In this document: piece by piece, positions 57,883-59,605 of the stretch | Layout: each line of letters begins with the position of its first letter | Numbering within the stretch: position 1 is the stretch's first letter | Origin: Parvibaculum sedimenti | GTDB taxonomy: Bacteria > Pseudomonadota > Alphaproteobacteria > Parvibaculales > Parvibaculaceae | Length of the DNA: 64,000 nucleotides | Assembly: GCF_009184905.1 (NCBI RefSeq) | Contig: NZ_WESC01000002.1 | Span: 186,001 to 250,000, forward strand | Reading direction: 5' to 3' | The notes under the pieces: generated by a model | The model's input: the letters and a program-made list of their open reading frames with translations, nothing else | Told to the model about the DNA's origin: nothing | Databases searched by the model: none | Translations under genes and position numbers: made by a program

Positions 57883-58384
57883 ACTCGCTCGCGTGATGAC
57901 GTGAACTCCCACAAGATCCGGACGGGCTCTATTGTTTTGCCTCGTTTCCCCCAGGACCGGTCTGAATGTGTAGACAAAGCCCCCCTCCCCCTCAAGTGAA
58001 GAATGAGACATCGTAAATGCGGGGGAATTGGCAAGAAGGGAAAAGGCATCCGGACAAAGAAAAACGCGCCGGCGAGGGGGGCTTTCGCGGCGCGTCTTGT
58101 CTCTTGGTGTTGCCCCTTTGAAAGGGGTGGCCCGGTCCCCCAATTCATCCCGGTGGGGCTGGGGGGCTGATGAAACCGGAACTTCAAGAGAACCGGGCCA
58201 GTGAGGCAACGATGCTAGACTGACGGTCCAGTGTGTCCCTGCAAGGGCTGAAAAAAGGCAAGATTGTGATTCTGGATTAACTTCCCGAAAGCTAGCAGAA
58301 TGAAGACCTTAGCCGGTTCGACCGGCAGGCGGGCCGCCGCTTCAGGGCCCGTGTGAAAGCCCGGTTGTAAAGGGAGGTGACGGC
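57883..58384. other. Highly structured divergent intergenic region
   Basis: 502 bases between the GldA-like ATPase and the DUF2794 gene. It contains a cluster of hairpins read as a minus-strand RNA (see the ncRNA entry, about 58056-58205). Towards the plus-strand gene lie GCCGGT-tcg-ACCGGC (58312-58326) and GGGCC/GGCCC (58331-58350), small leader hairpins, and then a strong ribosome site AAGGGAGGTGA. No ORF with family-like content is present. Confidence 0.55.
58056..58205 (-). ncRNA. Candidate small RNA with C-rich loops and intrinsic terminator
   Basis: Read on the minus strand: a first hairpin GGCCCGGT (58199-58192) / ACCGGGCC (58136-58129) contains an inner stem TTCATC/GATGAA whose loop is very C-rich (AGCCCCCCAGCCCC). 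A second hairpin is CCCCTTT/AAAGGGG (58127-58113). A third, ACGCGCC+TCGC stem (58095-58064), has loop AAGCCCCCC and is followed by TTTTCTTT, a textbook terminator that no protein gene needs. Start point and promoter are not defined; a -35-like TTGCAG lies at 58244-58239. It does not match the 4.5S, 6S or tmRNA patterns I know. Confidence 0.45.
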
Positions 58385-58789
58385 ATGGCGGATAGCTTCG
58401 AGGGATCGGAAAGCGCGTCGCGGGCCCAGGGCTCGCTCAGCCTCGTTATCTCGTCGAATGCCACGCCACCAAAATCCCTTCAGGAACCGGATGTCTTTTT
58501 CAACCGCGCCGAGCTCGAGGCAATCCTCTCCGTCTATGGGCGCATGGTGGTCGAAGGCGAATGGCGCGACTACGCCATCGGCTCGACAAGGGAGGTGGCG
58601 GTCTTCGCCGTCCACCGCCGAACCAGCGAAATGCCGCTCTACCGCATCGAAAAGCGCCCGAAACTGACCCGCCGCCAGGGCGCCTATAGCGTCGTCGCCG
58701 CCACCGGCCTCGTGCTGAAGCGCGGCCACGACCTGAAACAGGTTCTCAAAGTCTTCGAAAAGCGCAAGCTGCGCGTCATCGGCGCGTGA
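58385..58789 (+). CDS. DUF2794 family protein
   Basis: A 134-residue protein of the alphaproteobacterial DUF2794 family, function unknown. Seen: the family core VFFNRAELEAILSVYGRMV, GEWRDYAIGSTREVAVFAVHRR, EMPLYRIEKRPKLTRRQGAYSVV and LVLKRGHDLKQVLKVFEKRK; the first 35 residues are polar and variable. AAGGGAGGTGA is seven bases from the ATG. Soluble and basic at its C-terminus. It converges on the Bax-inhibitor gene across a shared terminator. Confidence 0.88.
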   Translation: MADSFEGSESASRAQGSLSLVISSNATPPKSLQEPDVFFNRAELEAILSVYGRMVVEGEWRDYAIGSTREVAVFAVHRRTSEMPLYRIEKRPKLTRRQGAYSVVAATGLVLKRGHDLKQVLKVFEKRKLRVIGA

Positions 58790-58855: not shown

Positions 58856-59605
58856 TCAGCGGCGATTGCCGAGGAACTGCAGCAGGAACATGAACATGTT
58901 GATGAAGTCGAGATAGAGCGACAGCGCGCCCATGATCGCCTTCTTGCCGGCGACGACTTCGCCGTCACCCTCGTAATACATCGACTTGATCGTCTGCGTG
59001 TCATAGGCGGTGAGGCCCGCGAAGATGAGCACGCCGATGACCGACACGGCGAATTGCAGGGCAGAGCTCTGCAGGAAGAGGTTCACCAGCGAGGCAACGA
59101 TGATCCCGATCAGGCCCATGAAGAGAAACGAGCCCATCGCCGAGAGGTCGCGCTTCGTCACATAGCCGTAAAGGCTGAGCGATCCGAAGGCGATCGCCGT
59201 GACGAAGAAGGTCTGGGTGATGCTCGCGCCGGTATAGACGAGGAAAACGCTCGAAAGCGACAGGCCCATGAGGCCGGCGAAAATCCAGAACGTGGTCTGG
59301 GCCGCCGAAACGCTCATGCTGTGGATGCGCGCGCTGAGAAAGAAAACAAGCCCGAGCGGCGCGAAAATGACGAGCCACTTCAGCGGGCTGGTGAAGAGCG
59401 CCACGCCGAAGGGCGAAAGCGCGAGACCGGCGCCCGTGTTCTGAACGGCCGCCTGGAAGGCAAGCCAGGCAACGACGCCGGTGATGGCGAGACCCGCCGC
59501 CATATAATTGTAGACGCGAAGCATATAGCTGCGCAGACCCTGGTCGATTGCCGGGCTCTCTACGCCAACGCTGCTCCGCAGTCTGTCTTGGTCAAAATTG
59601 GCCAT
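58856..59605 (-). CDS. Bax inhibitor-1/YccA family membrane protein
   Basis: Seven-helix inner-membrane protein of the BI-1/TMBIM family; 249 residues. Seen: RSYMLRVYNYMAAGLAITGVVAW, SLYGYVTKRDLSAMGSFLFMGLIG, and the C-terminal GALSLYLDFINMFMFLLQFLG, the family signature. Members act as Ca2+/H+ leak channels or interact with FtsH; its role here is not shown. CAGGAGGG lies before the ATG. Single gene, sharing a terminator with DUF2794. Confidence 0.92.
   Translation of the reverse strand: MANFDQDRLRSSVGVESPAIDQGLRSYMLRVYNYMAAGLAITGVVAWLAFQAAVQNTGAGLALSPFGVALFTSPLKWLVIFAPLGLVFFLSARIHSMSVSAAQTTFWIFAGLMGLSLSSVFLVYTGASITQTFFVTAIAFGSLSLYGYVTKRDLSAMGSFLFMGLIGIIVASLVNLFLQSSALQFAVSVIGVLIFAGLTAYDTQTIKSMYYEGDGEVVAGKKAIMGALSLYLDFINMFMFLLQFLGNRR

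Follow-up and report, generated by a model that had tools for sequence, protein, structure and literature searches.

An RNA encoded on the minus strand from about position 58210 to 58056 is a real sequence feature of the window, by which we mean the whole stretch of 64,000 nucleotides of Parvibaculum sedimenti DNA that was analysed. The reading that we prefer, with a probability of about 0.7, is that it is a free-standing, Rho-independently terminated, trans-acting small RNA (sRNA) of ~155 nt, the counterpart of BjrC174 of Bradyrhizobiaceae, and that its C-rich loops pair with G-rich sites in mRNAs. An earlier note on this DNA, made from the sequence alone, had interpreted the spacer as the site of a minus-strand sRNA with C-rich loops, and this interpretation is supported by the analysis reported here.

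The three consecutive minus-strand hairpins described in that note are all present: a long hairpin (P2, 58200–58128), a small hairpin (P3, 58127–58113) and the hairpin and U tract of a Rho-independent terminator (58104–58056), which end in UUUUUCUUU. The two C-rich loops are present as well. The apical loop of P2 (UCAGCCCCCCAGCCCC, 58170–58155) is the proposed mRNA-binding site, and a run of CCCCCC in the terminator loop (58081–58076) is a candidate second site. The extent first given, 58056–58205, covers these hairpins but misses a predicted closing stem around P2 (P1), formed by GUUGCC (58210–58205) and GGCAAC (58114–58109), together with about five bases at the 5' end. Because of this stem, the RNA probably starts some five bases further upstream, near 58210. 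The 5' end of the whole RNA (58210–58056) is thus inferred from P1 and a -10-like region, and its 3' end from the terminator, which is supported both by the fold and by the terminators of relatives. P3 is likewise predicted by folding and partly competes with P1. Among 34 family loci, TTGC was found ahead of P2 in all and GCAAC no more than 75 nt after P2 in 27, the P1 3' arm being missing by this simple test in the other seven.

Folding of the minus strand between 58056 and 58205 (150 nt) gave a minimum free energy of -70.2 kcal/mol, compared with a mean of -50.6 for shuffled sequences (z = -4.78), and none of 200 shuffles was as good. For the identical bases read on the plus strand, z was -1.72 and 14 of 200 shuffles were as good. 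A 158-nt version of the RNA, extended to 58213 on the minus strand, gave a z of -4.27. The spacer stretch occurs as a single copy in its own genome. A simple scan for terminators and promoters listed no terminator here, as its rule takes loops of 3–8 bases and this loop has nine, and it listed no sigma-70-like promoter at the locus. The -10/-35 region may be sigma-32-like or fit other promoter readings, which were considered by eye.

To assess conservation, the spacer was searched in 61 genomes and matched in 35. These comprise all 27 genomes of the genus (its own included) and eight of ten other genomes of the family, the two misses being assemblies that are 68% and 70% complete; none of 24 genomes from the rest of the class gave a match. 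The loop string AGCCCCCCAGCCCC is identical in all 35 genomes that have the spacer. A run of at least five Cs just before the terminator T run was found in 27/27 genus loci, with widely different terminator stems, and the loop was not C-rich in six terminators read from the family genera g3 and g4. In one further case (G203, L033/L046), an RNA of like architecture, with C-rich P2 and terminator loops, is located on a contig other than that of DUF2794, the gene next to the RNA in the window.

Absence of compensatory changes in relatives had been set beforehand as the outcome that would count against the proposed RNA, and P2 passes this test, with such changes seen across Parvibaculales and Rhizobiales. 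For a joint alignment, 112 hairpins were read from 115 loci; after removal of near-identical hairpins and of one that lacked a 3' match, 34 distinct sequences remained. In the outer P2 helix of ten pairs, 98.5% of the cells are paired and six of the ten pairs have changed on both sides. The covariation score was reached by none of 500 shuffles, a count which is not a probability since related sequences are not independent. Helices slid by 1–3 columns were worse than the outer P2 helix on every measure.

The genomic context of the RNA was also analysed. The next gene upstream, DUF2794 (58385–58789, plus strand; Pfam PF10984, E = 6.6e-39), is transcribed divergently, and a Bax1-I gene (58856–59605) lies beyond it on the strand of the RNA. 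The statement in the earlier note that no upstream protein gene needs this terminator holds in the sense that DUF2794, the next gene, is divergent. DUF2794 is a conserved neighbor by synteny. A scan of named genomes with the loop pattern gave at least 119 stretches, 80 of which were listed as loci, and the named loci among the matches listed belong mostly to Bradyrhizobium, Afipia and other Xanthobacteraceae or Hyphomicrobiales. Nine of the 80 had less than 750 bases of flank, so 71 were testable for DUF2794. Among these listed loci, the gene was found in divergent orientation at 217–437 nt in 68, three of which (L103, L109, and L120) come from the family to which the window belongs, and was absent in three, namely an archaeal MAG (L081), Granulicella (L152) and Methylocystis (L098). 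A Bax1-I gene was present beyond, on the strand of the RNA, in 37 of 39 listed loci with more than 3.5 kb of flank. Among the open-access papers that our search covered, one names DUF2794 (as an entry of a gene list, where no sRNA is mentioned) and one names BjrC174.

Upstream of the RNA, 36–61 bases before P1, we found a box with the pattern AATCAYAAT-N3-GCC-N3-TTTC-N-GCC (58271–58246, minus strand). Upstream regions were aligned within each group (33 distinct family sequences, and 70 distinct named sequences among the matches listed), and comparison of the two consensus lines by eye revealed that the box is common to the Parvibaculales and Rhizobiales loci. A related 20-base pattern of the box core has one other site in the genome (three mismatches), and its control has none. 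Judging from these alignments, the box is a probable promoter or regulator site, and the divergent DUF2794 gene may make use of it as well.

To investigate the range of the RNA in Alphaproteobacteria, we took 80 DUF2794 genes of 79 genomes and read the region upstream of each on the divergent strand. These genes were among the best-scoring ones in a class sample of 289 genomes, 155 of which have DUF2794; a few genes were skipped, including those of family members in which the RNA had already been found, and one region is no longer than 81 bases. A regular expression describing the loop matched 13 of the 80 regions, 12 of them outside the Parvibaculum family and distributed across nine other families. 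It had no match on the other strand and none as a reversed pattern, and simulated sequences gave a mean of 0.06 matches with a maximum of one. Since the expression was designed with the first 40 regions in view (11 matches), the last 40, with two matches (L243 and L249), provide the cleaner test. In the folds printed for these regions, the motif occupies the apex of a long hairpin or a position close to it. The box, with up to three mismatches, was found in six of the 80 regions, five of which have a loop RNA 96–106 nt downstream (raw counts). The 67 regions without a match show that not every such region has the RNA or that the loop is variable. No loop of the CCCC-A-CCCC type was matched in the regions of Methylobacterium, Sphingomonas and Ruegeria. 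Matches of CCCCCC in three loci of family f42 (L220, L229, and L232) were set aside as serC leaders near DUF2794.

The hairpin opposite DUF2794 carries CCCCAGCCCC in two Sinorhizobium records, Shinella and Rhizobium, all of them large replicons labelled as plasmids, and the loop expression would miss it. BjrC174 matches below the cutoff were obtained at these spots in Shinella (35.5 bits), S. meliloti (33.0 bits) and Sinorhizobium K101 (29.7 bits), and the Rhizobium hairpin gave no BjrC174 match. In Rhodobacterales, the order of G188, DUF2794 is present in 243 of 244 genomes; GCCCCCACCC occurs at a comparable distance opposite the gene in eight of 30 loci read (L287, L289, L295, L297, L298, L309, L311, and L312), a string too short to be called homologous. 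It lies in a short terminator-like hairpin in the two cases printed (L287 and L289).

Some other elements were noted in these records. A SAM_alpha riboswitch is located near DUF2794 in Shinella (L315, 6065–6142, plus strand) and a ybhL leader by the Bax1-I gene of Rhizobium (L317, 4708–4777, minus strand). DUF2794 was also found on three replicons labelled as plasmids (CP090106.1, NZ_CP069303.1, and NZ_CP104131.1), which are 3.5–4.6 Mb in size and chromosome-like, the first of them carrying acnA.

Other explanations of the locus have to be weighed against this record. The RNA might be an attenuator, a 5' leader of the ABC-transporter operon that lies downstream, whose terminator would control read-through. 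The ABC transporter ATPase gene (57882–56860, minus strand; Pfam ABC_tran) lies outside the RNA unit but on the same strand, and among the 30 family loci in which it was located, 26 have its start 273–366 nt past the loop. In addition, its leader in the window holds GAGGGGGGCUUU (57974–57991), a perfect 12-base complement to the terminator-loop region (58073–58087), and 25 of the 26 near leaders have a run of at least four Gs, at other places in relatives. However, the distance varies between relatives, reaching 1038–1132 nt in four of the 30 loci (L027, L028, L030, and L034), and in Rhizobiaceae records the ABC gene is replaced by a thioredoxin-family gene pointing at the RNA. The constant partner is the divergent DUF2794 instead, and the 12-base complement is shorter or different in other leaders. 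An attenuator was therefore rejected on synteny and is very improbable; the G runs and the complement would make the ABC mRNA at most a target. A small protein-coding gene has a next to negligible chance. Open frames do run through the region in the window, where the longest ATG frame starting in the RNA has 103 amino acids, but the longest such frame has 0–1 amino acids in 20 of 34 family loci (GTG and TTG starts left out), which led us to reject it, and sequence changes follow the stems. With the leader and the coding gene falling away, the reading as a trans-acting sRNA is favored.

Two further possibilities concern what the conserved elements do. DUF2794 remains the neighbor of the RNA even in distant relatives, with the box located in between, as would be expected if the locus were a unit that controls DUF2794 in cis, by divergent transcription or through the box, and whose RNA product matters little. 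Selection on promoter DNA, on the other hand, is not expected to give compensatory stems and an invariant loop, and in G203 the same type of RNA is on a contig other than that of DUF2794, so we regard such a unit as improbable. It is also conceivable, if unlikely, that the RNA is real but that its C-rich loops bind a protein or titrate another RNA, the invariant loop being a protein recognition site; we know of no protein with such a C-rich-loop-binding role. The loop, which is kept in 35/35 family genomes, is conserved more strictly than the pairing seeds of many-target RNAs need, and no target stands out among the sites complementary to it. Against this, the loops of GsrN and PmaR pair with mRNA, according to the available parts of the reports on them (PMC5869019, PMC6234868).

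A reasonable course of events for the trans-acting sRNA is as follows. The RNA would be transcribed from about 58210 and act in trans, perhaps together with Hfq, the gene of which is present in the genome. The exposed apical loop of P2, and in this genus also the apex of the terminator, may then pair with G-rich stretches of several mRNAs. Such pairing, in mRNA leaders or coding parts, might change how these mRNAs are translated or how stable they are, an effect established experimentally for GsrN and PmaR. The genome contains 41 sites complementary to the loop with up to three mismatches (one of them the locus itself) and 16 for the reversed pattern, an excess which names no target and proves nothing. 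The earlier suggestion of a C-rich-loop trans-acting RNA fits both GsrN and PmaR, but its proposed targets, G-rich ribosome-binding sites, are too narrow, since the predicted sites of PmaR are mostly not near ribosome-binding sites, as stated in the available part of that paper (PMC6234868).

BjrC174 was reportedly first described by Madhugiri and others in 2012. The covariance-model search that the earlier note had called for returned a match to this family over its full length (RF02355, model positions 1–201 of 201; 35.9 bits, E = 5.9e-5) but below the curated cutoff of 45 bits, and at its cutoff Rfam found nothing at the locus. The only match above cutoff in the window is an ffh sRNA (RF01793, 36610–36661, minus strand; 47 bits, cutoff 35). 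A resemblance to suhB/MmgR and ar7 was dismissed, the scores being at chance level. Among nine family loci analysed by cmscan, four match BjrC174 at E ≤ 0.1 (best 42.0 bits) and five do not. None of the first 40 DUF2794 regions matches it at E 0.1; these include that of a family member (L222), which indicates that the model is insensitive to distant relatives. Over the 289 class genomes RF02355 matches two, neither above cutoff, and says little on absence, as the RNA carriers G028 and G032 were missed. The exact loop pattern matches five of these genomes, three family members and two others (G062 and G096) for which no DUF2794 match was listed.

Comparison of the two RNAs revealed a shared closing stem, a long hairpin with a CAGCC(C)CCCAGCCCC loop, a terminator and a similar upstream box, and in both cases a divergent DUF2794 followed by a Bax1-I gene. 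The long hairpin with the C-rich loop CAGCCCCCAGCCCC, as in BjrC174, is found in the window RNA with one extra C. The Parvibaculum RNA also differs in its 5' end (GUUGCCUCA instead of UGCGUUG), and it adds the small hairpin P3 and a C-rich terminator loop. By the Rfam cutoff it falls outside the BjrC174 family, whereas by place, loop and structure it is homologous, a divergent counterpart of BjrC174 at the ancestral locus. In the part of the published study available to us, BjrC174 is an abundant Bradyrhizobium sRNA with a mapped start and an active promoter, and its start had the highest promoter activity among the tested starts without a mapped promoter (PMC4842269).

PmaR (formerly C10) of Agrobacterium tumefaciens is described, in the available part of its report, as a spoon-like RNA with a C-rich loop and nine reported targets, mostly regulated positively; changing CCCA at positions 58–61 abolished target regulation, and the authors considered the RNA restricted to Agrobacterium and one Rhizobium strain (PMC6234868). 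The same description places it between two ORFs of unknown function and gives it a long stem with a C-rich apical loop in which an accessible G follows CCCA; the window loop holds CCCAG. The Rhizobiaceae RNAs opposite DUF2794 fit this anatomy. By hand count, the loop-closing G and the G that follows CCCA are 15 nt apart in S. meliloti, against 16 nt for Shinella and 13 nt for Rhizobium. The corresponding step in PmaR as described (G47 to G62) is 15 nt, equal to that of S. meliloti, although the Sinorhizobium loop has a further G. A kinship of these RNAs with PmaR, with which they were compared by description, is thus a lead.

Considering all these RNAs together, we lean towards the hypothesis of one ancient core riboregulator of Alphaproteobacteria, inherited vertically at a single place opposite DUF2794. 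It would comprise BjrC174, the Parvibaculum RNA, the RNAs that Rhizobiaceae carry beside DUF2794 (PmaR probably among them) and those of nine further sampled alphaproteobacterial families. Its stems would have turned over almost fully while a CCCC-AG-CCCC-type loop and the upstream control box were kept, and sequence searches would have split it into clade-specific orphans. Rfam names BjrC174, an abundant but little-studied RNA, for Bradyrhizobiaceae, and one conserved place would tie it and PmaR together. If they are joined, this sRNA has retained its loop ever since at least two orders diverged, and the known targets of PmaR could guide tests of BjrC174 and of free-living relatives. A simple search rule, to look opposite DUF2794, would then serve where sequence search fails.

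GsrN of Caulobacter offers another comparison, also made by description. In the available part of its report, GsrN uses its C-rich loop to pair with the G-rich leader of katG, and KatG is raised (PMC5869019). The likeness lies in this 5' loop, in which GsrN has six Cs for pairing with G-rich leaders of mRNAs. According to the same source, GsrN differs in having a general-stress sigma-factor promoter (sigma-T/EcfG) and in being processed to a stable 5' piece, and its homologs usually lie close to the stress-response locus. On inspection by eye, our aligned upstream regions showed no obvious EcfG-type promoter, and the window RNA sits beside DUF2794 instead of a stress-response locus.
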